64,000 nt of DNA from Planctomycetota bacterium (lineage in GTDB: Bacteria > Planctomycetota > Phycisphaerae > Phycisphaerales > Phycisphaeraceae). The stretch lies in NCBI GenBank assembly GCA_016350165.1, contig CP066225.1, forward strand, positions 930,001 through 994,000, written 5' to 3'. Position 1 is the stretch's first letter; each line of letters begins with the position of its first letter. Of this stretch, positions 38,891-64,000 are shown piece after piece. The notes under the pieces are model-generated. The model did no database searches and had not been told where the DNA came from. It saw nothing but the letters and a program-made list of their open reading frames with translations. Made by a program: the position numbers and the translations under genes.

Positions 38891-38909
38891 TAATTTTGCT
38901 TTCTCTATA

Positions 38910-40768: not shown

Positions 40769-40770
40769 CT

Positions 40771-41229: not shown

Positions 41230-41244
41230 TGCATTCTCACTTCA

Positions 41245-43206: not shown

Positions 43207-43210
43207 TAGT

Positions 43211-43795: not shown

Positions 43796-43815
43796 GATCA
43801 ATCGCGACTGAATAC

Positions 43816-44277: not shown

Positions 44278-44296
44278 CGTTCTTCCTATCTCTTGA

Positions 44297-45520: not shown

Positions 45521-45523
45521 CGA

Positions 45524-47266
45524 TTAGATCTCACCTTGTATCAACTCATCACGTGATTCTGTTTCGCTAACGCCATTAAATTCACGCATCGTCACACGCA
45601 TAACTTCATCAACCGTCGTCACACCCTCAAGTATCTTTTCAACACCTGACTCACGTAACGGCCGCATATGCACACTCTTAACAGCCTCTTGTTTAATCTG
45701 CGCAGCCGTCGCTCTTGACTGGACTAACTCACGAATAGGTTCATTCACCATCAATAATTCATACAACCCCACACGCCCGCGGTATCCCGTACCTCGACAC
45801 AATTCACAACCCCGTCCTAAACGCATCCGCCGCGTATCAACATCACTTTCATTCAAATCCAAACGGTGCAGCCCACCTACCATTGCCTGATCATATGTTC
45901 CGCAGTGAGGACACACACGCCTAACCAATCGCTGCGCCATCACACCCACCAGTGAACTCGCCACCAGGTAAGGCTCAATACCCAGATCCAACAACCTCGT
46001 CACCGCACTCGCTGCATCATTCGTATGCAACGTCGAGAACACCAAGTGACCTGTCAGCGCTGCCTGAATCGCAAGCACCGCTGTCTCCTGGTCACGGATC
46101 TCACCCACCATCACAATATCCGGATCCTGACGTAATACGCTCCTTAACCCACTCGCAAACGTCATCCCCTTTTTCTCACTGATCTGTATCTGACTGATCC
46201 CATCAAGCTGATACTCAATCGGATCTTCCAACGTCAAAATATTCGACTGCTTACTATTAATCTCACTAAGCGATGCATAGAGCGTCGTCGATTTACCCGA
46301 TCCCGTCGGCCCCGTCACCAAAACTAAACCATGCTCAACACCAATCAGCGATCTATATTCTTCATACGACTGCTCGCCCATCCCCAATTCACTGAGCGTA
46401 TAAAGCCGCGCACTCTTATCCAATAAACGAATCACAATTCGCTCGCCGTGACTGCTCGGAATACTAGAGATGCGCAAATCCACCACACCATCACCCACCT
46501 GCACCGTCGCACGCCCATCCTGCGGCAAACGCTTCTCCGCAATATTCATCTTCCCCATCACCTTCACCCGGCTCACCATTTCCTCTAGCACACTCCGCGA
46601 CAACGTATACGCATCAAACAAAACACCATCAATACGCAACCTCACAACCAGCCGATCCTCATACGGCTGCACATGCACATCCGACGCCTCAGCCTTCACC
46701 GCCTCAAACAACATCAGGTTCACCAACTTAATCACCGGCGCACGCGACGCCACATCCAGCAAATCTTCATGCATCCCCCCGCCCCCGGAAGTTACCCCAG
46801 AAGTGTTCATCAATCGACTTAAATCGTCTTCCTTACCAACCTCCAGTTTTTCAATCACCGCATCCGCCTGCCCCGACTGCTGCTGGTATGCCTGATTAAT
46901 CTTCGCAAGCACCTGCGCATGCTCAAACTTTTCGATCCGTATATTGGTCACCCCGAACATCCGCCGCATCACATCAACCACATCACCCCCGCACTGCTCA
47001 CTCACAGCCAACAACATCCCATCCACAGCACCCTCAACCCCCTCATCATTATTGCCAGCATTTTCGCGAAACGATTTTCCGAAGGCAGGTGCACATCCCA
47101 TCACCCCATGACGACGCGCATAACCAATCGGCACACGCTCAACAAACCGCGCCGATACCTTCAACGTTTCAAGCTTTACACATTCACCTTGGCCACCCCA
47201 TCCCACAACACCACCTTCACCATCTACACCAACCCTTGCATCAATTATCTGACTCATTTCTCGCAT
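45524..47266 (-). CDS. gspE: Type II secretion ATPase GspE
   Basis: Secretion ATPase of about 580 residues. Seen: an N-terminal domain, APVIKLVNLMLFEAVKAEAS with DVHVQPYEDRLVVRLRIDG, Walker A GPTGSGKSTTLYASL, Asp box LTLEDPIEYQL, Walker B DPDIVMVGEIRDQETA, His box GHLVFSTLHTNDAASAVTRL, and a Zn site CPHC...CELC. The N-terminal part is glycine-rich (GVTSGGGGMHED near residue 165), and this stretch is encoded by the same GC-rich repeat as in gspH. Start may be ATG 47266 or TTG 47275; GAGGGA serves both. Confidence 0.96.
   Translation of the reverse strand: MREMSQIIDARVGVDGEGGVVGWGGQGECVKLETLKVSARFVERVPIGYARRHGVMGCAPAFGKSFRENAGNNDEGVEGAVDGMLLAVSEQCGGDVVDVMRRMFGVTNIRIEKFEHAQVLAKINQAYQQQSGQADAVIEKLEVGKEDDLSRLMNTSGVTSGGGGMHEDLLDVASRAPVIKLVNLMLFEAVKAEASDVHVQPYEDRLVVRLRIDGVLFDAYTLSRSVLEEMVSRVKVMGKMNIAEKRLPQDGRATVQVGDGVVDLRISSIPSSHGERIVIRLLDKSARLYTLSELGMGEQSYEEYRSLIGVEHGLVLVTGPTGSGKSTTLYASLSEINSKQSNILTLEDPIEYQLDGISQIQISEKKGMTFASGLRSVLRQDPDIVMVGEIRDQETAVLAIQAALTGHLVFSTLHTNDAASAVTRLLDLGIEPYLVASSLVGVMAQRLVRRVCPHCGTYDQAMVGGLHRLDLNESDVDTRRMRLGRGCELCRGTGYRGRVGLYELLMVNEPIRELVQSRATAAQIKQEAVKSVHMRPLRESGVEKILEGVTTVDEVMRVTMREFNGVSETESRDELIQGEI
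46776..46793. repeat. GC-rich dispersed repeat, copy 4 (18-mer)
   Basis: Same 18 bases as 43298-43315, here in gspE, encoding the Gly-rich stretch with a frame different from the gspH copy. Confidence 0.65.
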
Positions 47267-47279
47267 CACACTCAATCCC

Positions 47280-49433
47280 TCAAGGCATCAACAAAGGCTC
47301 ACTCACTGGATACGAAGCATCCATATTCGCTTGACCCAAACTACGATTCGAGAAATATTTTAAATCAGAAAAATCATCATCCCGCAATATAATCGGACGA
47401 ATAAATACATACATCACCGATTCAGAATGCTTGTTTTCGCGACTGCCAAACAAGTATTCTAATACTGGCAACTCACCTAAGATTGGCACAGCACTCTTAC
47501 CTTCGGATTGATCAATTCGTTTCACACCACCGACAATAATCGTATATCCATCTGGCACCGTAACTTCACTACTCACTTCATTTGTCTGGCGTGGCGGTGG
47601 ATTCCCACCTGATCCTTCACCTGTAAAACTATTCAAAGTAATATTGTACTCCAACCGTAAATGATCTCCCTCCGCAATATGCGGTGTCACACTAATCTGC
47701 GTACCCGCTTCCTCATAACCACCAAACCCACTGTTCGAAACACCATTATCTGAATTAATACTCGTCGTAGGCGCTTCATTAACGCTATTTATCTTCCCCG
47801 TTGCATTATCATTCACAAGCAAACGTGGCATAGCTAAAATCCGACTATTCCCCTTCTTTACTAATGCTTTGACAAGTACATCAACGACATCTGTCTTAAC
47901 TAACGTTCCATTGAAACCAGTACTTGCACCCACCGTTCTTACACCTGTTTCAGCATCATACGCACTCAATCCAAAACTCGTAAACAATTTAGATGTGATA
48001 CTATCACCAAACTCAATATCACCACCAAGCTCAACCCCTAATGTTTCGCTATCATTCTCATCAAGTGTCACAATTGTACATTCAATTAGAACCTGTGGTC
48101 GCCTCTTATCTAATAGCTTGATCAACTGACTATAAACCTCATGTATTTGTGACGAACCAATGACAATGATGCTGTTAGTATTAATATCCGCTGTCACGGT
48201 TATAGTATCTGGGTGTAATAAATCATTATTTTCAATATCATTTTGTTTTTCATTAAAATTCTTTTTTAGATCATCTTTAAAATTCGACAAACCCAAATTT
48301 TTATTTTCTAACTGTTGTATTGTACTCAACACTTCTTTTGCATCTGCAAAACTTAATTTATACGAGTGTATGATCGTCTGAGGAGTTTGAGTTAAAACAT
48401 CTAAATGGTTCACGATCTTATTAATTTTCACATGCATATATTCTGTTGCTGTTACAATTAAAGATCTTGAATCATCATCTGGTACAATATTTAAAATATA
48501 TTTATCATTGTCACCAACTCGCAAGCTACTTTCTACTATCTTCAGAATTTTGCTAGGTTTTTTATATTTTAAATGATACACCTGCGTAGACCCCGGTAAT
48601 TCTCGATCCAGTGCATGTATATAACTCTCAACTTCTTGAACATATTTAGCTTCCCCCAGTACTAACAAATAATTCAACCGGACGCATGGCATCACAATTA
48701 CGTTATCGCTTTGTTGAGAGCCTTTATCTTGAAGACGCTTTTGAGAACTCAGAATCTGTGTTAAGTCTCGCGATAATTCAGATAAATTTGCGAATTTTAT
48801 CTCAAAAAATCGATGTTCAATCTCTTTACTGGGTCTATCAGCCATTTCAAGTAGCTTCTGAACTTTATCTATGATTTTCACATAGTCAGTCACTACAAGT
48901 ACATTCTGATCATTCAAGATGTGAATACTACCACCTGGCTGCGTTAATAATGGTGAAACAAGCCCTTGTAACTTCGATGCTTCCGTGTGATCTAATTTGG
49001 AATATAACGTTACGATATCAAATGAAGAATCAAATTGATCTTGTGTATCATTAGATACTCTAGCTAATGTATATTTATCAAAATTTTTCGCTGGAACAAT
49101 TCGTCGCCACCCACTTTCATCTTCGACCAAAACCAAACCTTTGATCTCTAGAATATTATTCAAAAGATCAAGTAACTGCCCTTTTTTAACTTTTCCATGC
49201 GTTTGTAAAGTAATTCTTTTATTGTTAATGGACTCATCATATAAAATGTCAATTTTGAGTTGTTGTGAAACATAATCGACTAAAAAACGCAATTCAATAT
49301 TCGGCGCAAATTTAAGTTCAATTTCATGATCATTCACATCAGTTTCTGCAAACAGCGGACCAGTATTCACTAGCGCACTAAACAACAGCATAAACTGTAA
49401 TATGACCGTTTTTCGAAAATATCTATTACCCAT
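47280..49433 (-). CDS. gspD: Type II secretion outer-membrane secretin GspD
   Basis: Secretin of 717 residues and first gene of the operon. Seen: a signal peptide (KTVILQFMLLFSALVNTGPLFA), the N0 domain start IELKFAPNIELRFLVDYVSQ, N1-N3 domains with HRFFEIKFANLSELSRDLTQ and VYHLKYKKPSKILKIVESSL, and the C-terminal secretin domain with VLVKALVKKGNSRILAMPRL, TQISVTPHIAEGDHLRLEYN, VTVPDGYTIIVGGVKR and PILGELPVLEYLFGSRENKH. GAGGG is the ribosome site. It is divergent from the DoxX-like gene with 84 bases between the starts. It would form the outer-membrane channel for the secreted enzymes. Confidence 0.95.
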   Translation of the reverse strand: MGNRYFRKTVILQFMLLFSALVNTGPLFAETDVNDHEIELKFAPNIELRFLVDYVSQQLKIDILYDESINNKRITLQTHGKVKKGQLLDLLNNILEIKGLVLVEDESGWRRIVPAKNFDKYTLARVSNDTQDQFDSSFDIVTLYSKLDHTEASKLQGLVSPLLTQPGGSIHILNDQNVLVVTDYVKIIDKVQKLLEMADRPSKEIEHRFFEIKFANLSELSRDLTQILSSQKRLQDKGSQQSDNVIVMPCVRLNYLLVLGEAKYVQEVESYIHALDRELPGSTQVYHLKYKKPSKILKIVESSLRVGDNDKYILNIVPDDDSRSLIVTATEYMHVKINKIVNHLDVLTQTPQTIIHSYKLSFADAKEVLSTIQQLENKNLGLSNFKDDLKKNFNEKQNDIENNDLLHPDTITVTADINTNSIIVIGSSQIHEVYSQLIKLLDKRRPQVLIECTIVTLDENDSETLGVELGGDIEFGDSITSKLFTSFGLSAYDAETGVRTVGASTGFNGTLVKTDVVDVLVKALVKKGNSRILAMPRLLVNDNATGKINSVNEAPTTSINSDNGVSNSGFGGYEEAGTQISVTPHIAEGDHLRLEYNITLNSFTGEGSGGNPPPRQTNEVSSEVTVPDGYTIIVGGVKRIDQSEGKSAVPILGELPVLEYLFGSRENKHSESVMYVFIRPIILRDDDFSDLKYFSNRSLGQANMDASYPVSEPLLMP

Positions 49434-50433: not shown

Positions 50434-51081
50434 TCAGATATATTGTATTCTTATAAAAGTAAACGATTTATTGAAAAGACAATATAGACCGTTCAATTGA
50501 GAAAAATCAACAACATTTGCCTCATCCTGATTACTCTCTAGCTGCGTTCTGATTTCGATTTCTACTGATTTTATATATCCCAAATGCAAGGATATATCAT
50601 CTTCATTTAAATTCGAGAAACTACGAAGTATTTCCCCATCATTACTTAGCAAATACAAATCTGGCATAGTATTATCATTAGGATTTGATATCCAATAACA
50701 CTTCAATACAGCTATGGTTTTATCATCATTAAACGTCACATATGACAAAAATGGAGCGGGCGTGTCAGTAATATTGTTGGCATATAAATCCAAGATCCCT
50801 GATGCAATTAACCATGCTTGCTCAACTTGTACGTGATCATCATAAGCGTTGGCTTTAATTACACCTGTTTCCAGAAAGTCAATTGGTGCTCCCAAATCAA
50901 TAGCATTACTAATACTTGCTATTGTATCCATCAATTGAATTTTATCTTGAGATTGGTGGCCTTTATCATACTCATCTGAAAATGCAAATACCGAATTTAC
51001 ACATTTAACTAAAATCAATAGACATATGGCTACGATAATAATCAGATACTTATTATGGACATTGCCCAGAACTTTTTGCAT
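50434..51081 (-). CDS. Unknown protein overlapping the RHS gene end; possible partner or immunity protein
   Basis: Hypothetical protein of 215 residues with one N-terminal membrane helix or signal (YLIIIVAICLLILVKCVNSV) and an otherwise soluble alpha/beta part with many Asp/Asn residues. I recognise no family. Its start lies 28 bases inside the end of the RHS gene, so the two are translationally linked. Small genes directly downstream of RHS toxins are often immunity proteins, but an exported or membrane location would be unusual for a cytoplasmic toxin and fits one acting outside the cytoplasm. The last residues (FTFIRIQYI) look abnormal; a neighbouring frame continues with an acidic tail, so a recent frameshift near 50451 is possible. 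Confidence 0.6.
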   Translation of the reverse strand: MQKVLGNVHNKYLIIIVAICLLILVKCVNSVFAFSDEYDKGHQSQDKIQLMDTIASISNAIDLGAPIDFLETGVIKANAYDDHVQVEQAWLIASGILDLYANNITDTPAPFLSYVTFNDDKTIAVLKCYWISNPNDNTMPDLYLLSNDGEILRSFSNLNEDDISLHLGYIKSVEIEIRTQLESNQDEANVVDFSQLNGLYCLFNKSFTFIRIQYI

Positions 51082-54000
51082 CTTCTTTAATCCTTTCTAA
51101 AGCACGTCTTCTAGCGGCATCTCTTTCCGCTTTTCGCGGCAGCATATTTCCCGTTCTCGACCAACCAATATGCTGCATATTTGAATCTATTTCTCCAGTT
51201 CGATCAACTTTCTGTACTTCTTCGGTGATCTTTTTAACATCTGACCATTCTGTAGTTAACGGTTTCGCACATGTGCAGTCACAAACCTTGTACAAAACTA
51301 CATACCATTCTTGAAAATGATTCAATTTTCTTTGCCGATCATAAAAATCTAACATTTTCGGTATTTCACCAATCAATACATCCAATGGTACTGACGGCAT
51401 GTTATTGAATAGATAATTCATCCAATCATTACCATACCAAAACCAATCTTCAGTATTCCCTACCCCACTGCCAATACGTCCCCAACGCTGTAACCGTTTA
51501 CCCCATACAGCGGGATTTTGAAATTTTTTGAGATAATTCAGTCTCGCCAATAAATCTCTAGTTAGAGCATACTTCTCCTCTTCCTTTTCTGGTGTATAGC
51601 CGTATTTTGTTCTAATAAAAGCTCCATTAAATATTTGATAATCGCCCGGCTTACATTGAGATAAACCATATGGGTCCACAGATAATACTGGACTGCTTTT
51701 TAAATATTGGTAAGTGCTTATACCATCAATATATCCTAATGGATCTCTTTGCATAAATCGGCCTATTGCTGGATTTAGCATTCTTGCACGGTTGTAGATC
51801 AGTCCGCCTCTGATGCCAACAAGGTTTTCGTCGTGCATCAAGCCTTGGTGGCCAAACTCGTTGAGCGAAACAATGTAATTGATATAGCCGTCACCACGCG
51901 TGGGTTGAGATCTGAAGGCTGGTGTTGTTAACTTTGGATCACTCTTTTTCTGCTGTTCCAAACTATTTGGATTACTTGGATTAACCCAGAATTGATCTTC
52001 AGCATAACCTGGAGTATTAGAGAACGTAAACACAGTCCGTTCACCATATGGTGTATACTCATAACGCTCTGCTAATGTACCAAACTCATTAACAATACCC
52101 AGAACATTGTAATTAGCATCTTGAAGTGCGTATGTATCAATATATTCTTGCATTTCAAAGCCTGTCAGAATCCTCACAGTTCTACTTTGAATGATTTCAT
52201 CAACATAATTCAGACCCCAGACATTTTGCTTGAGGATTTCATCACTATCATCACGTACTTCGATCTGACGCATACCTTCGTAGTAATAGTGATATGTATT
52301 GTCTAGATTATCACTGTTATGCACCTGCTTGATGATACGCTTACCAAGTGCATCATATTGATTGCTTTGAACAAGTGCACCATTCTCTACATTGCCTAAC
52401 GTGTTACGGTGAGCTTTGTAGACCTGAGTCATGCGGTTCCAAGCATCGTAAGTGTATGCATACACACCATCGAATGTCATGTTGCCAGCAGCATCATATT
52501 CATAAGTGTTTTGAGCATAGCTATCGGTCACTTCAAAATCATCAAAGTGCTCAACTCGGTCGAAAGTGCCGTCACCATTGGAATCGGTACGGACTAAGAA
52601 GTCATCAACATAAGAGGTGGCTCCTGTTGAGAGCAAGCCAACCTGACCACCTTCATCGCCAAGACCTGTAACGGTATAACAAACAGAAGCACTATTCAGA
52701 GCTGAATCGATCGATGCATCATAATTGACTGATGCTGCTGACTTCACGATACGGACTTCGATAACACCATTCACACGCTGTACACGAACCCACAGTTTGT
52801 CGGACTCTGTGACATCTGGGTAATTTGCACTGATATATGTACCTGAGGCAAATTGCCACGCACCACCGTTATCAACTTTGTAGGATTGAATCGTCGTAGA
52901 ACTAGTCTTATTGGATACGTCATTGTGTGCGAAGATCAGTGCTTTAAAGTTATTAATATCCTTTGCACCAAAAATGAGCTGCATTTTGTGTGTATAAGTA
53001 TCACCTGTCTTGCGTTCAAAACTGAAAGTTGTTTCAAAATCATCCAGATAAGACCCCTTCATGAGCAATGGATATGTTTGGTATCCATAACTCCAAGACA
53101 ACCGTACTCGTCCTTTACTACCATCAGTATCAAGTGGCATCAAACTATAGTTTGCCCAACGTCCAAGGAAGTCCTGGGCCGTGAAACTGTCCATATGCAG
53201 GAAAGTATCAAACTTTACGCCAGCTTGCGTCGTGTACAAGCCAACACGACCCGCCGGATAACCATCAGCTATAGCTCTGCCAAGCTTAATTGAATGTGCA
53301 CGGCTATTGGTAGAAAGGAACTGTTTTGAATTAAGCGTTACAGTAGTGTTATATGAATGAATTGTATTCTTCACGCCATTTTCAACATGGTAAAGCTTCA
53401 CATATGACTGAGCGGCATTGTATTGCCTGACATAGAGCCAATAATCATCAGCCGATTTATAGCCAAACACAAAACCTGCCTCTGCACCATCTACTGTATC
53501 CGTCGGGAACTGTGTATAGCAACCGATATTACTTTGCCCTGTTTCCGGCATCGCCAGCAGAATCGTCGCCTCTGAACCTGCAACACTCGTAACCTCAAGC
53601 ATACTTGAGCCGCCGGAGTTAAAGACGAACTGGTCACTGGTGTCCAACTGATCCCAGTCATCTGCATTAGTCGTACTGCTAAAACCTGATATAAATCTTG
53701 GGTTACGACCTGCCAAAGTCTTGCGGTATTCGTATTCATTGGCTTTATTTACAGCTTGTTTATGGCGAATCTCTTTATCTTTAAATTGATTAAGCTTTTT
53801 GATTTCCAGTTGATTACCAAGTTGATCAAGTTTCCATTCTGTCAGGTCAACTATACCAACCTTCTTAATGTCGGGTGATGTCGGTAAACCTGTAATGGTA
53901 CCCGCTTCATAACCTTTCAGGCGGTGTAAATCATCGTAGCTGTAAAGGTGCGATGCTCTTGGATACTCAACACGGTCAGCATAGAGCCGATTCGATGCTC

Positions 54001-57000
54001 TATCGTATGCGTGATTAATATTAAAAATATCATCCACCACATCACCGTTATCATCATATCGTTCCCATTTGAGCTTATTGATACGGCTAAATCGATCCAG
54101 GTGTTCATCACCAGTAGAGCCTGCAAAATCAAGACGTACCTGTGGCTTCGGATAGGCCTTGGCAATCACACGTCCATCACCGTCACGCTCATATGAGACA
54201 ATCACGTTCGCATCATCAGTCCCACGTGTTGCATTGCCTGAGATGGAGGTAATACGGTTAATGTAGTGAGAAAGACCATTTGCATCACCTGCATCGCTAT
54301 ATAAATAATGCACACCTCGACCGTTCGGATACGTAATCTTCTTCAGACGCACACCTTTAACTGTGTCTGATCCATCTTCATATTCGTAAGATACCCATCT
54401 AGCAATGCCATTTTCACTACCATCATGTGTTTGGACATTAGATGTGAGCTGGCCAAAATCGTTATATAGATAAACATTTTCATTTAGCAATGAACCGCTA
54501 CTCGGGTCTTCATTGTCATAGCTCAATACTTTGTTCAGCAAACCACGCTTGTTGTAGCCATAGCTTAATGATTCCACTGAACCATCAACAGCACTATCCC
54601 ATTCCGTCACTTTATCGAGCAGCAAACGTCCCAGGATATCTCTTTCAAATTCACGCTTAACACCACGCTGGTCTTTAGATGACGTAACCCGGCCAAAACG
54701 GTCATACGTCAATTTCACGCGGTCATTAGCATCCTCTGAATCTGGATATTGAATTTCTGTCAGCAGTGTATTGCTTGCAACATCAGAATCAGCCAAAGTC
54801 GTGCCGTAGACATATGTTGTCACCTGATCATCTGAATAATCACCATCTGCATTAGGATCGATGGCTGTAATCGTTTTGATCTTACCACCTGCCGTATACG
54901 TATACTTCGTAGCGCGGTTGACATCATTATCACGACTCATCGGCAGGTTACTGGATGAATTCCAAGTAGAAGACTGGTAATTTTCAATGACATAAATCTT
55001 CTGACCAATATCATTAAAAATGACTTTTGTACTGACCCCTTCCGGATCTGTCATTATTTGAGCCCGAACAACTATGTCTTGAGTGTTATACTCATGACTT
55101 GAGACCAAAACACTTGCAGTCGACGACGGGACTGATGCTGAACGTGTAAACGCAGCACCATCATTGTCACCATAATTCGCACTCGCTATTCGGTTGCCTT
55201 CTTGGTCATACCAATACGCAAGATAGGTCGCATGGGCATTCGCAGAATCCAGAGCACCCACCGTGCTTTGATCGTCATGTTTACGTGAATATGTTTCACT
55301 GGATAGAAGTTGCCCCGCAATATTGTATGCGTATTGCGTCTGCGTAAGAATTGTGTCTCCTGTTGTCAGCTTGACCTCTGGGTATGCCGATTCCGATGGA
55401 GAGTTATCGTATCCACTATACACCGCAACTTGGCGACCAAGATCGTCGTATTGGATCTTTGCAAACCGTACGCCATCACCTGCATTTCTTGACTTGATAA
55501 CATTGCCTGTATCGTCATACCAATAGTTAGATGACAGGCTATTACCCACAACACCTGTATCCGGATTCACCGCGAACTTGGTTTCACGATATTTACGACC
55601 ACGAGCATCGTACCCATACTCTGTTTTACTCAACAACGTGCCTGTTGAAGTCGTTTCTACCTTATCTAACAATTCTGTTTGTACATTTCGGCCAATATTG
55701 TCGTACGTACTCTTTGTATAACGTGCATATGTGTCACTATCATCAAAATTGCCATCTTGATTCTGATCGACAGCACCCGTACCTTCAACAACACGGCGAC
55801 CTAACCAGTCATAATCGTAAACAGTAACAAGCTTATCGGTATCGCTTGCGTACCGAGTGATCTTGGTGATTTGCCCTTCATCTGAATATGTACCATTATC
55901 GTACTCATATTCCGCGACAATACACATATCATTATTTGATGCACCACCAGCGGACGGATCTGCTGATGTTGCGCCGGTATCATCGGTGCCAACATACTCT
56001 TTGACTAGATATCCTAGTTCATCATAAACATAACGCGTCACCGTACCATCCTGCGCTTCGTAGCGAGCTTTCTTACCTGTAACCGCATCATACTCATAAT
56101 ACGTTTCCAGATAATTATTGCTCACGCCAAGCTGGCCATCACCAGTTGTTCCTTCGCTGCCCATTGGGATGTCATGATAAACTCTTGTTGTAACGAGCTG
56201 ATTCTTATCGTTGTAAAAATTCTCTGTCCATGACTCAATGTCGATAGGAACTGTATCCTCACCACTCATACCACCATCTCCCCAATCTCTTGCTATGAGT
56301 GTTTTATGGATACGTTTACCGTCTTTACTAATCCACTGGAATTTAACGTTTTCATGGGAAAACATCTGATAAGGTTCACCTGCATATCCATATCCTGATG
56401 CTACTCGAATTTGATCTAATTCGTTATATGCCCCATCAATATATACATAGCGAGTAACCCTTGGGATCGAATTAATTTCTGGCCCGACTTCGTAAGTCAA
56501 ACGGGCTTTATGGTCATACTCGTAGATCCATTCCTGATGCAAACCCGCGTAGCTGCTGGAGACCCATGATGGATGTTCTGAAACACCGAGTGATGACACG
56601 ATCGGATCTATAACCTTTTTGATGGGTTTACCGATGAACGGGTCATATTCGATATATGTAACAACACCATTCTCGTCTTTTCGCCATGTCAAATTGCCGA
56701 ATCGATCGAATGCCTCGTAACGTTGAACGACCGCGCCTGAACCGTTTTCATCTGTCATAACGGTTGGCAAGATCGTAATACGTTCTTTAATGTTTGTAGA
56801 ATTCTCATGCAAAACATACTGATACTCAGTTGTATTCTGAACCAACTGATCATCAGCATCTGGGTACTTGATAAGTTTCTTCAATCGAACCACAGGTTCA
56901 TAACCTGTTAATACATTACCCTGATCATCTTTTGGATAATGAGATTCGTATTCTCTCTTTTCACTCAAGATCTCTGTTGGTGCAGTATATACACCACCAT

Positions 57001-58996
57001 CGTAAGAGCCCTGCCCCTTCTGATATGAACGTTTTTCTATTTTGCCATGAGTACTGTATTCATATCGCTCAATAATACCATCATTTGCTTTGACATTCGC
57101 ATACAGAGGATTGCCATAACTATCAGTAATCGGATTATTGCTCCCATCAACAGCTTTTTCCATCACCTGGTCTGCACCCCAACCTGCAGGCAATGAATTT
57201 GTGTTGATTGAGCTACTATGTACAACTCTGCTCTTTCTACCTTTAGAATCGTATTCATAGAATTTAGGTAACTCATAGCTAATAGGCGTACTTGATTGCG
57301 ATGCTGCAGCCATACCTGCATTATATGCAACCGCACCTTGACTACTTACAGTAACCTTATTCACCAAATAAACTGGTTGATTCCGTACATTAGTACGCAA
57401 CTTCATATCACGTACTGCACCAGGTCGTGTCCAAGTCGCCTGATTCACTGGTAAGTTATATGCCGTCTTACGTTGAGCTGATGAATCACTAATATTCAGC
57501 TGCGGCCGCGTATTAACCGAAATATAGGCAATCCCATCACCCGTTGTACCTGAGCTACCACTACAAGAACCACATCCAGCTTTGGCAACCTCTTTCGTTA
57601 TCGCACGCTTATAAAAATCTGTATTCGAACTGCTCTGATCATACTCAAAATAATAATCAGAGTAATTATCAAGTAATGTTGAAGTAAACCCACTTTGCTC
57701 TGCGGTACTATTCGCCTTCACTAACGCACGATATGAATCGGGATTCATCACATACTTAAACTGAGAACGAATAACATTTGGTGTTTCACCAGTAGAATGA
57801 TCTGCATAGTACCTGTAAGCATGCTTTTTATATGCAGTTGTATCATATTCTATGCCAGTATTGTTTGGTAAAAACTGCTCTACCCCTTCTAGTCCAAAAA
57901 ACACACCTTCCGACATACCTACTTGAACTTCATATTTTACTTTTCCAATCAATATGCTTTCATATTGACCATTAACAGGCAAATACCGACTAAAAGAAGC
58001 TTCTGTTAATGTAAATCCAAATGTGTAATTATCTAATGATGCAATATCAACGTATTCATATGTAATTAAATCATATGCAACGGAGTCATTTGGAAAAATA
58101 CGTTTCAAACCACTAGGTAGCCCACGATATCTCGTAGTACCCATGTATTCATGCATCCACATTTGATCGTACGTACGCGAACTAACACCAATCACAATCC
58201 CACTTGGATCTTCATAACGCAAAAAACCGCCAACTGGAGTATGCTCAACAACCCCAAGTTCGCCATTATTATGGCTTACATATCCGTCATATTCATCCAG
58301 ACTCCCATTAAAACCACCATCATCATTTGGATCGTTGTCACCATCAGCCAACCCATCATCATAAAAATCTCTAAAATAATATCGACCGCCTTCAAAAGAA
58401 TAAACAAACTCATGATTCACACTATCATGAATAAGTGATATATCTTCATCATCACCTTCAAGCTTCCAAACACTGCCATCTAACACAAATGTTTTGGTTC
58501 CGTGCGGATGAACCGTAATATACATTTTGCGCCCCTGACTCAAATTAACAAGATCTGCATTTGAGTGCTGATTTTCATCATTTCGGGGCATATTTTTTGT
58601 ATACAAATATGGCCATTGATGGAAAAACCAACCTCCCCCTACATGCCCTTCACCGTCCATTGATGCGATTGTCCCGCCTTGGCCTGTATAAGATAACGAC
58701 TTAATATCACCAGGATGGATACGAGATATACCAAACTGCTTCATGCCCAAAGGGTCTGGAATATCAATCGCCGATATATCCTTGGCGCCTGAACCCAGCA
58801 TAATTGGATTATTGGTTTGCCCTTCACCACATCCGGGCTTGGGACCTGTAAAACAAGATGGAATTCCTGGCTCCCCATGAGGTTTCGCATTCACCTCACC
58901 ACCAACTATAAATACTGGTATTGAAACCAAACCTGCTAAAAATAACTTTCCATACAAACCACAAGTACTCATATTGCGTCTCTTTACATTATTCAT
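51053..58996 (-). CDS. Giant RHS/YD-repeat secreted protein with inserted lectin-like domain and variable tip
   Basis: Protein of 2,647 residues. Seen: a signal peptide (MSTCGLYGKLFLAGLVSIPV...GGEVNA), an N-terminal region with IPDPLGMKQFGISRIHPGDI, a Cys-rich CGSCSGSSG turn near 478, then dozens of YD repeats (YEYDSKGRKSRVV from about 579, YEYDAVTGKKARYEA, YVYDELGYLVKEYV and others) up to the RHS core end RMLNPAIGRFMQRDPLGYID and QYLKSSPVLSVDPYGL near 2445. At about 1765-2160 the repeats are interrupted by two concanavalin-like beta-sandwich domains (GRVGLYTTQAGVKFDTF, KLWVRVQRVNGVIEVRIVKS). The last 200 residues after the core are unlike the rest and hold several Trp, Cys pairs and a basic end; no toxin family recognised. 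Overlaps genes on both sides. Confidence 0.9.
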   Translation of the reverse strand: MNNVKRRNMSTCGLYGKLFLAGLVSIPVFIVGGEVNAKPHGEPGIPSCFTGPKPGCGEGQTNNPIMLGSGAKDISAIDIPDPLGMKQFGISRIHPGDIKSLSYTGQGGTIASMDGEGHVGGGWFFHQWPYLYTKNMPRNDENQHSNADLVNLSQGRKMYITVHPHGTKTFVLDGSVWKLEGDDEDISLIHDSVNHEFVYSFEGGRYYFRDFYDDGLADGDNDPNDDGGFNGSLDEYDGYVSHNNGELGVVEHTPVGGFLRYEDPSGIVIGVSSRTYDQMWMHEYMGTTRYRGLPSGLKRIFPNDSVAYDLITYEYVDIASLDNYTFGFTLTEASFSRYLPVNGQYESILIGKVKYEVQVGMSEGVFFGLEGVEQFLPNNTGIEYDTTAYKKHAYRYYADHSTGETPNVIRSQFKYVMNPDSYRALVKANSTAEQSGFTSTLLDNYSDYYFEYDQSSSNTDFYKRAITKEVAKAGCGSCSGSSGTTGDGIAYISVNTRPQLNISDSSAQRKTAYNLPVNQATWTRPGAVRDMKLRTNVRNQPVYLVNKVTVSSQGAVAYNAGMAAASQSSTPISYELPKFYEYDSKGRKSRVVHSSSINTNSLPAGWGADQVMEKAVDGSNNPITDSYGNPLYANVKANDGIIERYEYSTHGKIEKRSYQKGQGSYDGGVYTAPTEILSEKREYESHYPKDDQGNVLTGYEPVVRLKKLIKYPDADDQLVQNTTEYQYVLHENSTNIKERITILPTVMTDENGSGAVVQRYEAFDRFGNLTWRKDENGVVTYIEYDPFIGKPIKKVIDPIVSSLGVSEHPSWVSSSYAGLHQEWIYEYDHKARLTYEVGPEINSIPRVTRYVYIDGAYNELDQIRVASGYGYAGEPYQMFSHENVKFQWISKDGKRIHKTLIARDWGDGGMSGEDTVPIDIESWTENFYNDKNQLVTTRVYHDIPMGSEGTTGDGQLGVSNNYLETYYEYDAVTGKKARYEAQDGTVTRYVYDELGYLVKEYVGTDDTGATSADPSAGGASNNDMCIVAEYEYDNGTYSDEGQITKITRYASDTDKLVTVYDYDWLGRRVVEGTGAVDQNQDGNFDDSDTYARYTKSTYDNIGRNVQTELLDKVETTSTGTLLSKTEYGYDARGRKYRETKFAVNPDTGVVGNSLSSNYWYDDTGNVIKSRNAGDGVRFAKIQYDDLGRQVAVYSGYDNSPSESAYPEVKLTTGDTILTQTQYAYNIAGQLLSSETYSRKHDDQSTVGALDSANAHATYLAYWYDQEGNRIASANYGDNDGAAFTRSASVPSSTASVLVSSHEYNTQDIVVRAQIMTDPEGVSTKVIFNDIGQKIYVIENYQSSTWNSSSNLPMSRDNDVNRATKYTYTAGGKIKTITAIDPNADGDYSDDQVTTYVYGTTLADSDVASNTLLTEIQYPDSEDANDRVKLTYDRFGRVTSSKDQRGVKREFERDILGRLLLDKVTEWDSAVDGSVESLSYGYNKRGLLNKVLSYDNEDPSSGSLLNENVYLYNDFGQLTSNVQTHDGSENGIARWVSYEYEDGSDTVKGVRLKKITYPNGRGVHYLYSDAGDANGLSHYINRITSISGNATRGTDDANVIVSYERDGDGRVIAKAYPKPQVRLDFAGSTGDEHLDRFSRINKLKWERYDDNGDVVDDIFNINHAYDRASNRLYADRVEYPRASHLYSYDDLHRLKGYEAGTITGLPTSPDIKKVGIVDLTEWKLDQLGNQLEIKKLNQFKDKEIRHKQAVNKANEYEYRKTLAGRNPRFISGFSSTTNADDWDQLDTSDQFVFNSGGSSMLEVTSVAGSEATILLAMPETGQSNIGCYTQFPTDTVDGAEAGFVFGYKSADDYWLYVRQYNAAQSYVKLYHVENGVKNTIHSYNTTVTLNSKQFLSTNSRAHSIKLGRAIADGYPAGRVGLYTTQAGVKFDTFLHMDSFTAQDFLGRWANYSLMPLDTDGSKGRVRLSWSYGYQTYPLLMKGSYLDDFETTFSFERKTGDTYTHKMQLIFGAKDINNFKALIFAHNDVSNKTSSTTIQSYKVDNGGAWQFASGTYISANYPDVTESDKLWVRVQRVNGVIEVRIVKSAASVNYDASIDSALNSASVCYTVTGLGDEGGQVGLLSTGATSYVDDFLVRTDSNGDGTFDRVEHFDDFEVTDSYAQNTYEYDAAGNMTFDGVYAYTYDAWNRMTQVYKAHRNTLGNVENGALVQSNQYDALGKRIIKQVHNSDNLDNTYHYYYEGMRQIEVRDDSDEILKQNVWGLNYVDEIIQSRTVRILTGFEMQEYIDTYALQDANYNVLGIVNEFGTLAERYEYTPYGERTVFTFSNTPGYAEDQFWVNPSNPNSLEQQKKSDPKLTTPAFRSQPTRGDGYINYIVSLNEFGHQGLMHDENLVGIRGGLIYNRARMLNPAIGRFMQRDPLGYIDGISTYQYLKSSPVLSVDPYGLSQCKPGDYQIFNGAFIRTKYGYTPEKEEEKYALTRDLLARLNYLKKFQNPAVWGKRLQRWGRIGSGVGNTEDWFWYGNDWMNYLFNNMPSVPLDVLIGEIPKMLDFYDRQRKLNHFQEWYVVLYKVCDCTCAKPLTTEWSDVKKITEEVQKVDRTGEIDSNMQHIGWSRTGNMLPRKAERDAARRRALERIKEDAKSSGQCP

Positions 58997-60369
58997 TTGA
59001 TAGGCCCCTCAAGATGATTAAGTTGCGCTTTAAGTTCATGTAAACGTTTTGTTAACTGTTGAAGACCCGCTTCATTAGTCGGGTCATATTTCTCGATGCG
59101 TTTTATCTGCTGCCTGACAACTTTCAGATTGGCCACAATCTCGTTGTACTGGCGTATGTAATCTTGCTGCTTCTGCTCTGCAGCATAAAGATCACGCAAA
59201 TAGGCTATATTTTGCTTATTACCTTCCAACCGCTCAGTAATAGCAGGATCTGTCGTCGTTACTTTTTCACTTAGCTGACTTGCATTATCAAAATCACGCA
59301 ATGCTGAATACGATTCAATCTGATTTAGCAATGCTTCCTGTTTCAAAACTTCAGACACAGACAAACCGATCGCTTTCTTTTCCCACTCCAACCCAGCCAA
59401 AGCACGCGGTGCATAAGAATTGATCTGCTCAGTATACGATCTTACCTGCAACCAAACATACTTCTCTTCATCTGTCTCAACTGTATCAAGCCGGCTTTGA
59501 ATTTGACCGACCCATTTTTGATAGCTCTCAGTCGCATTAGAAACAACAACCGTACCCTTACCACGTTGAAAAATTGTTTTTTGCCTAGTATAAAAATGAG
59601 ATGCCAACTTATACCCAACCAGCCTATCCTCTAATCGTTCTAAATTATCAACTGCACTAACGAAGCCTTCAATATCTGTAATCATTAACGCCAAAAAGTA
59701 CGCTTCCGCGTACTGATTCATCTTACGAATCGGCGACACTAAACCTCGGTAATACGGGCATGCACTATCATCGATCGTACTGCGTATATCTTCATGCCAA
59801 AACGGATTAAGAAACGCAAGAATCGTACTATCCACCCGAATACGATCCTCATTCCTATCAAAATTTTCGACTAGTGGCATAACCGCCTGACCTAAATCTG
59901 GGCCCTCAGTAATAGAATCTATCAGGTCGGCCTGTCCATACTGTAATGATTCTAACTTTAACGATTTTCCTGATATAACATCTAAATAAGCACTCAAAAT
60001 CATCCACTGACGATGCTCAATATCCGAACCAACATTGGCTTGAAATTCTTTAGAATCAAGGTATTCATGAATCACATCTGAAGCTGAAACTCGCTGATTT
60101 TCCGTAACTAACGTCGAACCACCTAATACCGTAACAAGAACATCTTCTGGAGAATGTTGCGACAATCTCTGATAACCACCGTCAAAGTATTGCCTCCAGT
60201 TCGATCTGGCCAAATCTCGAACTGCAGTTTCATTTGTATTACCGCAGATCACTTTCTTATACACATCACCGCTGGCTATTGCATCTTCACTCAGCCCCAA
60301 AACACCCACGTACAAAGACGCACCTAGCAATGCTACTAACAGGCCAATTAAAATTAGATACTTTATCAT
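58993..60369 (-). CDS. Unknown membrane-anchored coiled-coil protein, first gene of RHS operon
   Basis: Hypothetical protein of 458 residues. Seen: an N-terminal membrane helix (MIKYLILIGLLVALLGASLY), a mostly helical body, and a C-terminal coiled coil (QKQQDYIRQYNEIVANLKVV, QQLTKRLHELKAQLNHLEG). No family recognised. The stop codon overlaps the ATG of the RHS gene (ATGA), so it is the first gene of a three-gene operon. The position suggests a role in assembling, holding or exporting the RHS protein, but nothing in the sequence proves this. It does not resemble the usual EagR or PAAR partners of RHS toxins. Confidence 0.7.
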   Translation of the reverse strand: MIKYLILIGLLVALLGASLYVGVLGLSEDAIASGDVYKKVICGNTNETAVRDLARSNWRQYFDGGYQRLSQHSPEDVLVTVLGGSTLVTENQRVSASDVIHEYLDSKEFQANVGSDIEHRQWMILSAYLDVISGKSLKLESLQYGQADLIDSITEGPDLGQAVMPLVENFDRNEDRIRVDSTILAFLNPFWHEDIRSTIDDSACPYYRGLVSPIRKMNQYAEAYFLALMITDIEGFVSAVDNLERLEDRLVGYKLASHFYTRQKTIFQRGKGTVVVSNATESYQKWVGQIQSRLDTVETDEEKYVWLQVRSYTEQINSYAPRALAGLEWEKKAIGLSVSEVLKQEALLNQIESYSALRDFDNASQLSEKVTTTDPAITERLEGNKQNIAYLRDLYAAEQKQQDYIRQYNEIVANLKVVRQQIKRIEKYDPTNEAGLQQLTKRLHELKAQLNHLEGPIK

Positions 60370-60583
60370 TTTGCCCTAATATGCTTTGTTTAAAACTCAT
60401 TACACAAGCGGAACGGCACCTACAGAAGGTTATGAAGTTACTTATATAAGTAAGATTCTTCAAGTACCTTTTATTTTTTGCACAACACCAAAATGGGTTA
60501 GCCTAAGTATTGCTCTTAGGCGCTGAATTCTAATATTATTACAATTGCTCAACAGAGCACAATTGCGTTATAACATCACGACC

Positions 60584-61672
60584 ATGCAAACACACAGCAT
60601 TATCGTCAGGGTATTAGGCCTATTCTTGATTGGAACCGGATCACTTAAATTATTTACGGATCAATCCATCATCAACCTGTGGCTGATCGCACCAATCGAA
60701 ATCATAATTGGCGGTTTTATATTACTACGCCCAAAAGTTAATGCTACCCATTGGACTCTACTAATCTTATTCTCAACATTTTCGTTATATACCTTATCTA
60801 ACATACTTCAGAACAATGATGATTGCGGCTGCCTCGGAGTCATTTCTATCAACCCATGGTTCACGCTTATATTTGATTTATCCATTCTCATCTACCTAAT
60901 CATAACTAAAAGATCAATAGACAAAAACATGAAACTATTAGTTCCCACCAGTATAGCAATCGTAGCTTCAGTGCTAGCAACTATCATTTACTTTCAAATA
61001 GACAAGACTTTCAATCCCCCCGAACAGACAACCACAACAACCACTATAAATACACCCAAAATCACACTACAGAAAATTTCTAACCCTCTGATTAACACTG
61101 ACACAGAAAATAGAACAAAAACATTTTTTATATATGACCAGCATTGCCTAAACTGCACAAAAATAGCCTCCCACCCAATGTTAGATTCAATAGAATCGTC
61201 ACAGGCACAAAAATATATTCAAAACAGCCCAAACCATGCCAATAAACAGAACCGTTCTACATTACCTTGGCTATTAACAAACAAAGACACAAAAACCGAA
61301 ATTCACCTATTCAATTTAACTGACCAAGCAGATCTGGACATTAAACACAGGCATTTACATATTGGATCCTTTACACAACCTCAATCAATCGATCTCGGCA
61401 TAATTAAGACTAAAAGCCAATTAACAATACCTATTTACATGTTTAATGATACAAATTCCGATATTAAAGTTAAAACATTTCGCCCTACTTGCTCATGCAT
61501 TAAAATTACTTGTAATGTAAAAACAATAGCAATCACTGATTATCTAAAATTTGATTTAACATTCGAAGCGCCTGCGAAAACTATCGATCATTACCAACAA
61601 TCAATTCGCGTACGTACCACCAATGACGACATACCTTCAATAAACCTCTTACTACATGCAACAATAAAGTAG
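60584..61672 (+). CDS. MauE/DoxX-like membrane domain fused to DUF1573 domain
   Basis: Membrane protein of 362 residues. Seen: four helices in the first 120 residues with VLGLFLIGTGSLKLFTDQS, PIEIIIGGFILLRPKV and NNDDCGCLGV, the MauE-like pattern with a CGC pair; a further helix; a linker; CLNC near residue 185; and a C-terminal DUF1573 immunoglobulin-like domain with FTQPQSIDLGIIKTKSQLTI and FRPTCSCIKI containing the family CSC. Planctomycetes carry many DUF1573 proteins, and the fusion to MauE suggests a periplasmic thiol-redox role. ATG 60584 is preferred; an upstream TTG at 60545 lacks a ribosome site. Opposite strand to the RHS operon. Confidence 0.72.
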   Translation: MQTHSIIVRVLGLFLIGTGSLKLFTDQSIINLWLIAPIEIIIGGFILLRPKVNATHWTLLILFSTFSLYTLSNILQNNDDCGCLGVISINPWFTLIFDLSILIYLIITKRSIDKNMKLLVPTSIAIVASVLATIIYFQIDKTFNPPEQTTTTTTINTPKITLQKISNPLINTDTENRTKTFFIYDQHCLNCTKIASHPMLDSIESSQAQKYIQNSPNHANKQNRSTLPWLLTNKDTKTEIHLFNLTDQADLDIKHRHLHIGSFTQPQSIDLGIIKTKSQLTIPIYMFNDTNSDIKVKTFRPTCSCIKITCNVKTIAITDYLKFDLTFEAPAKTIDHYQQSIRVRTTNDDIPSINLLLHATIK

Positions 61673-62044: not shown

Positions 62045-62385
62045 AAGCCGAAGCTGATCAAAGACCACCCCATCCATAAGGCTGTTCAATGGGTTGACCA
62101 TATCGCTCGCGTAGCCCTCAAACATTACCTCACAAAAAACAAAGCCGCCTCCTTTCCAAAACAGTCTTCGAAACCGAACTCGGATCCACCCCACCGAAAC
62201 CCTCACCATCTAACACCTCAAAAGAGGCGCTGCAGAATCCGGTGCAGAACGTGCAGGAAATTAAGATATACAAGGGGAATCGACAGGAAATCGAAGAAAT
62301 CAAAATCCGCCTTATTTTGCAAAAACTAGGCGTTTTACCGCCTGATAGCGCACAAAAAAAGCTTCCTGAATTTCAGGAAGCTTAA
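62045..62385 (+). pseudogene. Decayed C-terminal end of a tyrosine recombinase (integrase)
   Basis: Reading the plus strand from 62045 gives HKAVQWVDHIARVALKHYL, which equals the last catalytic block of phage-type tyrosine recombinases, in planctomycete elements often VALKHYL with Tyr as nucleophile. After it the frame drifts; another frame gives EALQNPVQNVQEIK from about 62227, which resembles the low-complexity tails (QNPVQ) of planctomycete integrases. So at least one frameshift separates the parts and no N-terminal region remains. It points toward the tRNA-like site at 62391, as expected of an integrated element. Confidence 0.6.
62353..62383 (-). terminator. Terminator downstream of tRNA-like fragment (minus strand)
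   Basis: AAGCTTCCTGAA and TTCAGGAAGCTT form a perfect 12-bp stem with a one-base loop, followed on the minus strand by seven T. It stands 8 bases after the tRNA-like 3' end, the position of a tRNA terminator. Confidence 0.75.
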
Positions 62386-62390
62386 TCAAA

Positions 62391-62410
62391 TGGGCCTGGC
62401 AGGATTCGAT
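62391..62410 (-). other. tRNA 3'-end-like fragment, probable attachment site
   Basis: On the minus strand the 20 bases read ATCGAAT-CCTGC-CAGGCCC-A, which is exactly the layout of a tRNA 3' end: T-loop (canonical TTCGAAT with one change), 5-base T-stem strand, 7-base acceptor strand and discriminator base. The matching 5' part of a tRNA is absent (the bases upstream do not pair with CCTGC). Such 3'-end copies arise at attL/attR when an element integrates into a tRNA gene, and a recombinase remnant lies directly beside it. Confidence 0.6.
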
Positions 62411-62436
62411 ACACAAACGCCAAACCATTGATAAGT

Positions 62437-62673
62437 ATGAACTTATCTAACCCCAACAACATTCTCCATGCAGAATTCGGCGCACTCTTGGATTTATTGC
62501 TTAATCTCTCTCGAACTACCTTACATTCCACCTTACTCCTTGATTTTCTCACTGCAGAGCAGCAAGAACTGATACGATCTTTCCTAACCCAACTGATTCA
62601 GGCACCATCACACAAACGTTCAATATTTCTTAGACAGATTCAGAATATCTCAAATATAGATAGAAATACGTAA
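62437..62673 (+). CDS. Small hypothetical protein
   Basis: Reading frame of 78 codons from ATG 62437. It encodes a helix-rich peptide (AEFGALLDLLLNLSRTTLHS, TAEQQELIRSFLTQLI) with no family I recognise. There is no clear ribosome site, and it is convergent with the broken TPR gene. Codon pattern and composition look natural, but it may be a fragment. Confidence 0.35.
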   Translation: MNLSNPNNILHAEFGALLDLLLNLSRTTLHSTLLLDFLTAEQQELIRSFLTQLIQAPSHKRSIFLRQIQNISNIDRNT

Positions 62674-62675
62674 AT

Positions 62676-63236
62676 TTATTTTCCTATTACCGCTCTTTGT
62701 TCTTTAGCCCATTCAATCCAATCGGTGCGGATTTCACGCAGGATGGTCTCATCTAGTAGCTCTCGTAGTCCATCATTACGCTTCCTTTGCCGAACCTGAT
62801 TGCGAGCGTAATTGCCGATGATCTGTACGTTGTTTGGATCAGCTTTATAAGCACGTTCGTAGTACCCATGTGCTTTCTCATACTGCCCAACTGCTTCGTA
62901 AACCATTCCCAGATTGTTCAGCGGTTCGGATGCGTTATCAAGCAGTTTTACTTCATACTCAAACTCCCACGCGGCTGTGTTGTATTGCTGCAGATGATAA
63001 TAAACAAGCCCGAGGTTATTATGAGCTGGCGCGTAGGTCATATCTTCAGTTAAAGCTTCTTTGAGCAATATCTCTGCTTTTTGATACTGCCCCTGCTCAA
63101 TGTACATCGCGGCTTGTACAGTCTTTGCTTCTGCAGGTGACTCGTATACTTACTTGTCTTGCTTTGGATTTCCCATACAACCCGTGAAGATAATCGTAAT
63201 CATGAATAACGCTATATATCTTTGTTCAATACGCAT
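62676..63236 (-). pseudogene. Broken second copy of the TPR lipoprotein gene
   Basis: The stretch is closely related to the intact gene at 38300-38890. It starts MRIEQRYIALFMITIIFTGC, close to the lipoprotein signal of the intact copy, but an in-frame TAA at 63150-63152 falls after GNPKQDK, and about 11 residues (AEKASILNHEA in the intact copy) are deleted before MYIEQ. The TPR part itself (NNLGLVYYHLQQYNTAAWEF, NNLGMVYEAVGQYEKAHGYY) remains open from 63107 and is nearly unchanged, so the decay is recent or the fragment may still be translated. Confidence 0.88.
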
Positions 63237-63261
63237 CAGTTCTGCTTTCCCTCTGTAATTT

Positions 63262-63783
63262 TTATTTTGCATCATCCGGCGAATAAATCAGATTAGTAAT
63301 CGTTAATTCGCTCTTCCAACTTTCATTCCGCTGCTGCTTGCGATCTTCTTTTTCAGACAACCTTAAACTGGACACCGTGAGTGACGGATTACTCTCTTCA
63401 ACATGCCAGAAGAACTCAAGCATCTGCCTCATAGACGTATCATCAATCGCAACACGCGTCCTTTGCATGAGATAAGATGGCTGATTAACACGCTGCATAT
63501 TCTCAGACCAAACACTACTCAGTGAATCTAGTTTTGCTTTTTATGCCGCTTTTTCAAGCCATATGCGCAGATCACTCATCGCCATATCACCAGCCTCAAC
63601 CAATTTGGGCTGATCTTGCAGCGTCTTAATCTGCTGAATCATTTCACGTGCATTCTGCTAATCTTGTCGAGCCAGCTGCGTTTCATACTTTGCGTTATAC
63701 ATATTCCAGCCGGACCATAGACAATCAATCATGAGCATCGCGACACAAACGATCATCAATGTAATTTTCGATCGCTCATTCAT
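63262..63783 (-). pseudogene. Broken second copy of the GspM-like gene
   Basis: Related over its whole length to the gene at 38910-39437: start MNERSKITLMIVCVAMLMID, middle DQPKLVEAGDMAMSDLRI, end WKSELTITNLIYSPDDAK. Two in-frame stops interrupt it, TAG at 63658-63660 and TAA at 63541-63543. Only the last 78 codons are open. Order and spacing relative to the broken TPR copy equal those of the intact operon. Confidence 0.9.
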
Positions 63784-64000
63784 TTCTGCCCTCTTTCACT
63801 TAGTGGTTGCTTGGCAGTTTTAACACCTGCAATGCAAAACTCAACCGATCATCTATCTTGATTTTCTATACGCAGCAATTCGAATATGTAGCCCTCAACA
63901 CGATCCAGTGCTTTTACGATTTTGTTTGCATCAACATACGATCGTGCTGCACAATCCAAGCGGATCTGCTTCGGTTCTATCTGTACTTCCGTCAACTGAT
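63784..64000 (-). pseudogene. Broken second copy of the GspL-like gene, 3' part, cut by window edge
   Basis: Reads QLTEVQIEPKQIRLDCAARS, VDANKIVKALDRVEGYIFEL and SERGQK at the end, matching the C-terminal 70 residues of the intact gene at 39434-40768. An in-frame TGA at 63849-63851 interrupts the frame. The copy goes on beyond the window, so more of the T2SS operon may be duplicated there. Confidence 0.88.

Follow-up and report, generated by a model that had tools for sequence, protein, structure and literature searches.

Two probable successive insertions at a planctomycete tRNA-Ile(GAU) gene by elements whose integrase frame contains its own attachment site

We examined a window of 64,000 nucleotides (C1:930001–994000, part of a single-contig planctomycete genome of 5,234,020 bases). 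The region close to its right-hand end very probably records two successive insertions at the same tRNA-Ile(GAU) gene, by members of an integrase family in which the attP core lies within the integrase (int) reading frame, such that the gene is cut on integration. As read from the DNA, the case consists of paired cores, frames that continue across them, a C-terminal tail conserved across the majority of the elements we looked at, and a natural circle with an unsplit gene, found alongside an empty tRNA gene.

The 19-mer TCGAATCCTGCCAGGCCCA was searched for across the 5.23-Mb genome allowing up to three mismatches. There are two exact copies: one in the window at 62391–62409 (minus strand), and one that forms the 3′ end of a tRNA-Ile(GAU) gene (C1:1083512–1083585, minus strand) 91 kb to the right of the window copy. 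The reversed pattern, scanned across the genome as a control, gave no matches. The core common to both sites is 24 bp long, TCAAATGGGCCTGGCAGGATTCGA, with window positions 62386–62409 matching C1:1083507–1083530 exactly; no third copy was present in a 175-kb scan allowing up to seven mismatches. ARAGORN made no tRNA calls in the window and Rfam gave no matches at gathering scores. The window copy (minus strand) thus reads as an att core made of the displaced 3′ end of tRNA-Ile(GAU), at the left end of an island, B. On the same strand, the sequence contains a hairpin (62359–62383) and a T run (62353–62359) that can be read as the terminator of the tRNA, and a hairpin with a T run is present beside both copies of the tRNA 3′ end, including that of the intact gene. 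Both cores have on their left the hairpin and, with it, an integrase gene's 3′ end, which is decayed in the window and intact at C1:1082163–1083563. The original prediction of a tRNA 3′-end copy with an adjoining terminator, left as the att scar of a tRNA-targeted element, is therefore upheld: a tRNA with exactly that end exists in the genome, and the partner att copy lies 91 kb to the right with an intact integrase.

The stretch to the left of the window core (62045–62385, plus strand) is the frameshifted 3′ remnant of an older integrase gene, assigned here to an element A. The part that encodes VALKHYL (62111–62131) is in the frame of 62045, and the part that ends in a TAA (62383–62385) is in the frame of 62047. 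Window positions 62054–62409 are 80.5% identical in DNA (379 columns) to the 3′ end of the intact integrase gene, and the two copies, which take in the int 3′ end, the terminator and the 3′ end of the tRNA, are near-identical over the last ∼140 bp. The intact gene has 467 codons and matches the catalytic domain PF00589 (residues 197–358 of P0001; E 2.6e-10), which confirms the frameshifted tyrosine recombinase remnant that had been recognized from VALKHYL.

The two cores bound the 91-kb island B (C1:992386–1083530), most of which lies outside the window. One end has an intact tRNA, adjoined by the intact integrase, and the other has a tRNA 3′ fragment in the same orientation; the integrase gene sits between the two att copies, and the island is absent from the same tRNA in one relative, G001. 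In G001, a genome of the same genus, tRNA-Ile is identical (77 of 77 bases) and is flanked by the T2SS operon and an aminotransferase gene. The distance from T2SS to tRNA-Ile is ∼1.2 kb in G001 compared with 104 kb in the window's genome. From this synteny, the T2SS operon of the window (38300–49433, minus strand) is core chromosome by the ancestral tRNA-Ile site and lies outside the islands. A relic of an integrase seemed to be present by eye at the G001 tRNA-Ile, and was dropped when the best E value with the integrase profile was 1.4.

Because an integrase end, and not plain chromosome, lies to the left of the far core, the simplest history is a tandem one in which B arrived after A at the same tRNA. 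Element A would have inserted first at the 3′ end of tRNA-Ile(GAU), with its integrase and left end decaying later. The younger B would then have entered this tRNA as well, separating it from A's integrase and giving the order seen in window 62045–62673: A's integrase remnant, then the tRNA 3′ end that was displaced, then B's far arm. Element A would span ∼13 kb, from ∼C1:979.5k to 992.385k, and contain the remnant together with putative cargo: an RHS gene (51053–58996, minus strand; RHS repeat PF05593), a companion ORF of 458 aa (58993–60369, minus strand) and an ORF of 375 aa (60545–61672, plus strand). The RHS segment (51053–61672) is absent from G001 between T2SS and tRNA-Ile, and the 458-aa companion had no match in any of five relatives (G001 and four others) in a search run without a positive control. 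Element A probably brought the RHS operon. At its left end, neither a degenerate core (175-kb scan, up to seven mismatches) nor a tail recognized by the tail profile described below was found.

These results modify the suggestion that the RHS operon and a duplicate T2SS tail may have come, or been rearranged, with a genomic island. The att scar with its integrase remnant stands, but the island that can be delimited runs rightwards for 91 kb and the remnant belongs to an older insertion. For the RHS operon, arrival with the older element is plausible, as it lies in DNA that G001 lacks, but no left att copy was found. The duplicate T2SS tail does lie inside the young island B, but the T2SS operon itself does not belong to an island. 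The duplicate is a degraded copy of the end of the operon (62676–64000 and on to C1:994234, minus strand), C1:992675–994234 being 81% identical to C1:968299–969889 over 1.6 kb (1591 columns). It begins 2 bp downstream of the stop codon of the far-arm frame considered below.

The segment C1:994612–1071616 of island B contains four giant ORFs (2796–6019 codons) and two ORFs of ∼1300 codons, which account for ∼60 of the 91 kb. These ORFs have many repeats in common (∼50–100% alike in translated comparison), and one of the two shorter ones matches the passenger-associated transport repeat PF12951. At C1:1050800–1054822 an ECF sigma factor adjoins a Ser/Thr kinase with WD40 repeats. A DUF3987 gene (C1:1079951–1081759) is located ahead of the integrase, and a DUF3987 gene is also found on the 6-kb circle presented below; in G078:C153, one 815-codon frame combines a DUF3987-like part (by eye) with the integrase. 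The same integrase family occurs elsewhere in the genome, at a 40.4-kb tRNA-Leu island (C1:497k), at a 26.0-kb tRNA-Tyr island (C1:2.787M) and at tRNA-Val (C1:1.834M), where int is broken and a tail was found by profile.

The integrase frame of island B runs antisense into the tRNA without stopping before it, with the tail SNGPGRIRTCDLTLIRGAL. When the circular form was joined in silico, the frame in phase with int remained open beyond the core for 87 codons (62410–62670, plus strand, with the stop at 62671–62673), and the other two frames closed at 6 and 12 codons. Shuffled versions of 62410–62673 stayed open in 0.7% of cases. Sites of arm type are found in the integrase arm (TGCAGAATCCGGTGCA, 62231–62246, plus strand) and, 60 bp beyond the core, in the far arm (TGCAGAATTCGGCGCA, 62469–62484, plus strand); the pattern TGCANAATNCGGNGCA has just these two matches in the 64-kb window, one on each side of the core, where 0.01 would be expected. 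The window tail was not among the matches of a held-out profile of 84 other tails, and it scored 4.4 bits (rank 17) with a profile of eight nearer tails. As the tail profiles failed to recognize it, the frame was assigned from its position, phase and arm site rather than from homology. On that basis, 62410–62673 is probably the cut-off C-terminal end of B's integrase, a frame on which the original prediction was silent.

We examined up to 60 kb of sequence upstream of 22 integrases (152 kb for B; 40 kb each for G031_c and G060_b). A displaced tRNA 3′ end was found in 16 of the 22 elements as an exact match of 15–36 bp, giving element sizes of 4.9–91 kb. For 15 of these 16, the int frame joined through the core stays open for a further 41–87 codons, placing the attP core inside the int frame. 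In the remaining element, G031_a, the integrase stops ∼29 codons ahead of the core and there is no tail; no tail was found in the 40 kb examined for each of G031_c and G060_b. The far-arm peptides follow a common pattern, roughly GGAxSGA and then DPxLAxxVxAWPxLPxxIRxGIxAMV.

The 22 elements were translated in six frames, giving 21,706 segments with 1.67 million residues, and these were searched with a profile built from the 15 tails. The 15 training tails ranked first and were followed by four far ends from outside the training set: G000_Val (E 2.9e-5), G071_a (1e-3), G001_a (4e-3) and G038_a (0.024). The profile thus found tails in four of the six elements without a far core match. All four sit behind a diverged tRNA 3′ end (18–26 of 30 bases), and three are in phase with the integrase. 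The fourth, G001_a, is out of phase with the integrase of that element and was counted against; it probably belongs to another, older element. Overall, 18 of the 22 elements have an in-phase tail at the far end. Leave-one-out profiles recovered 11 of the 15 training tails, several of these 11 being much alike, and missed G000_Ile, G000_Leu, G000_Tyr and G004_a, the window's own element being among those missed. In G001 (C1:246594–289170, L172–L174), the decayed 3′ end of a tRNA-Tyr is followed by a tail that resembles the one in the tRNA-Tyr island of the window's genome; its phase does not agree with that of the integrase that occupies this tRNA-Tyr today, and it is probably the trace of an earlier element.

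The phase relationship was also examined at 11 loci. Integrase and tail were in phase in all seven held-out loci that have a common core, identified independently in named genomes from Phycisphaerales, Pirellulales and other planctomycete MAGs. Of the other four, L226 is in phase and was already in the training set, L258 is in phase on an arm repeat rather than the core, L227 is out of phase on a string that is not an established core, and L257 has no shared string. At the other end of the elements, we tabulated 53 non-viral integrase loci (five of them in the window's genome), of which 45 have a called tRNA beside the gene and eight do not. The integrase gene runs into the adjoining tRNA in 42 of the 45, ending inside it in 37 and passing through in five; in three (L045, L048 and L051) the frame stops before the tRNA. 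The catalytic domain is intact in the integrated copies, and by eye the peptides derived from the tRNA fall into three frames (GLEP, IRT and DSN). In one assembly, G014, an integrase (L326, C17) adjoins a truncated tRNA-Phe with only the 3′ part, and the intact tRNA-Phe lies on a separate contig (L327, C72) by an integrase fragment, an arrangement that is perhaps a second-step insertion or a rearrangement. Tail matches were obtained in 158 of 301 genomes of the order (E ≤ 1e-3), and a draw of 294 genomes from the phylum gave 53 with matches (E ≤ 1e-5), in both cases as counts with the integrase partner mostly unchecked and no decoy control.

The first half of the tail overlaps a DNA repeat of two GGNGC half-sites, 11–14 bp (mostly 12) apart. 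Of 23 elements, 14 have this repeat in the int arm and 14 have it in the far arm, where shuffles would lead one to expect ∼2.5 for each arm, and it looks like an arm-type binding site for the integrase. Since the GGAxSGA half overlaps these DNA sites, its conservation is in part not due to selection on protein. For the arm half of the tail the coding signal is weak (pS 0.46, pN 0.37; 433 pairs). For the WPxLP half, beyond the arm site, pS is 0.539 and pN 0.282, and differences are distributed over the three codon positions as 12509/8487/18990 (1271 pairs), so that the substitutions look to be of coding type. This comparison drew on 65 unique best hits that were not hand-checked, after dropping pairs of fewer than 15 codons or with pN above 0.45. 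AlphaFold2, given an alignment of 18 tails, predicted a disordered start followed by a two-helix hairpin (helices at 38–49 and 52–66), with pLDDT of at least 90 at 21 of 70 residues and a low overall pTM of 0.37.

The gene was found intact and unsplit in a single case. The exact 121-bp overlap between its ends makes contig G042:C161 (6,156 bases) a circle of 6,035 bp, on which we found a DUF3987 gene (E 5.9e-68) and one 555-codon integrase frame (stop to stop) that contains the catalytic domain, the tRNA-antisense peptide VARPGLE and the tail. The 22-bp core within this frame, GTGGCCAGACCCGGACTTGAAC, has one further copy in the assembly (up to two mismatches), where it ends an intact tRNA-Phe gene on the 3′ side. 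The 1.5 kb around this tRNA-Phe gene, read in three frames on the strand expected for int, contained neither an integrase nor a tail, and the gene thus appears to be an empty site; the assembly is 78% complete, and a binning error is possible for the pairing of circle and tRNA.

A second contiguous int-tail case, decayed at its 5′ end, is G087:C41. Successive searches for a tail within the integrase's own ORF gave none at 30 loci (1.5-kb flanks), none at 41, one at 40 (L293, with its 5′ part decayed) and, in the next 20, L303, the circle (L316 in that set repeats L293). The L303 tail was recognized by reading and by a second match in the same record (L323). Weak tail-profile matches in L306, L311 and L303 fell outside the C-terminal segment, in an arm-like integrase motif, and were not counted. 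Among plasmid and phage records, integrase queries for episomal relatives gave only distant partial matches. In IMG/VR there were six contigs with related integrases, all without a tail and without a called tRNA, and the tail query confirmed nothing; five of the six were also put through the tRNA-neighbour tabulation, separately from the 53 non-viral loci.

These observations suggest the following course of events. In the circle, a full-length integrase would consist of the catalytic domain, a linker with arm sites, a tRNA-antisense peptide and a C-terminal segment that is predicted to be disordered and then to form a helical hairpin. This protein would use the attP that lies within the int gene itself and pair it with the 3′ end of the tRNA. 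On integration the tRNA would be restored and the int gene cut at the core, behind the catalytic domain. The near part of int would then read antisense into the host tRNA and end in residues coded there, and the C-terminal segment would stay at the far end of the island.

The most serious alternative is an ordinary tRNA island scar at which int merely overlaps attP, the open frame in the far arm being a by-product of conserved DNA arm sites. The coincidence of the GGAxSGA motif with the arm repeat, the failure of the window tail with the held-out profile and the out-of-phase tail found by profile speak for this account. We nevertheless think it unlikely, as the WPxLP half, situated past the arm site, has substitutions of coding type, a two-helix hairpin is predicted with high pLDDT over part of its length, the joined frames end at 41–87 codons in 15 of 16 elements, and an unsplit gene exists in the circle.

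Two other histories were weighed for the window itself. A single old element that brought in the RHS operon as well as the T2SS tail, and of which the remnant and a lone att copy are left, was the form taken by the original prediction, and it agrees with the position of RHS between core chromosome and the remnant. It is very improbable given that the partner tRNA, 91 kb to the right, has an intact integrase of its own and that the T2SS copy lies on that right-hand side of the core. A segmental duplication of the int and tRNA 3′ ends, without site-specific integration, could account for two copies that agree from the int 3′ end through the terminator to the 3′ end of the tRNA and are so alike over their final stretch. 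The match ends in the T arm of the tRNA, however, a part in or close to which the matches of other family members also stop, and G001 lacks the intervening DNA at that locus; we regard such a duplication as the most improbable of these accounts.

We therefore return to two successive insertions by elements with a divided int gene. Here the crossover would fall within the core, a longer, full-length integrase would be made, and the change of tail may alter the activity or direction of the integrase, by analogy with what a review reports for Mx8. It is possible, and we offer it tentatively, that cutting the gene acts as a built-in direction switch. The full-length form, made only from the circle, would integrate, and the cut form with its short tRNA-coded tail would differ in activity and hold or release the island. 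In a tandem, the far arm of the second element, in phase with the older integrase through the core, could re-supply the C-terminal segment and so re-arm the older island; the window may contain a decayed junction of this kind.

Related arrangements are known. In the myxophage Mx8, attP is situated within the coding sequence of int, which acquires a new 3′ end on integration (PMC6070905; PMC4383910). A review reports that this end does not inactivate the integrase and changes its specificity, and terms it a molecular switch (PMC6070905). For Mx9, the same review says only that a similar principle has been elucidated (PMC6070905), and the Islander authors mention that the integrases of Mx8 and SSV extend across attP (PMC4383910). 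The Int frame in the Mx8 record contains a tRNA-antisense-like peptide, STGLEPVLLGS, followed by ∼100 residues. The planctomycete family shares with Mx8 an attP core inside the int frame, seen in the circle and in 15 of 16 in silico joins; for island B the likeness comes from the join alone. Mx8 Int matches the planctomycete family profile weakly (12–13 bits), and with −4.3 bits against the tail profile it shows no homology in the tail. Mx8 represents one phage group, whereas here a large family of planctomycete elements is involved.

The archaeal 'suicidal' integrases (SSV1, pTN3 and pT26-2) contain att within the integrase gene and are split on integration (PMC8371274). According to the account of them in that 2021 review, the split falls between the catalytic domain and an N-terminal part, leaving halves that are described as inactive, and recombinases that disrupt their own gene are exclusively archaeal (PMC8371274). 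In the planctomycete elements, by contrast, the catalytic domain stays whole and the C-terminal segment alone is removed, unlike an SSV-type split. Island B also resembles the tRNA islands described by the Islander authors, which have an intact tRNA at one end, a displaced 3′ fragment at the other and an integrase inside, and which can form tandem arrays (PMC4383910). It shares these features, but in the planctomycete family the int frame crosses att and the gene is divided between the two ends of the island. Integration also changes a C-terminus in the integration-dependent immunity systems of mycobacteriophages. In those systems it is the repressor gene that is cut, whereas in the planctomycete family it is the integrase. 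The mycobacteriophage attP is described as lying inside a coding gene (PMC4557955).

In the literature searched, which left most subscription papers outside, we found no planctomycete case of an int gene containing its own att. The principle is already known from Mx8 and SSV, and we regard the planctomycete family as a new and widespread variant of it. Integrase genes that contain their own attachment site have been described for archaeal elements and a few myxophages; here the arrangement looks to be the usual one in a common planctomycete family. Odd integrase annotations with peptides of tRNA origin at their ends may be explained in this way, and the cut-off tail on its own provides a way to look for island ends. 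The family supplies numerous natural pairs in which one integrase is cut and the other uncut, and would allow a direct test of whether exchange of a C-terminus can fix the direction of integration.
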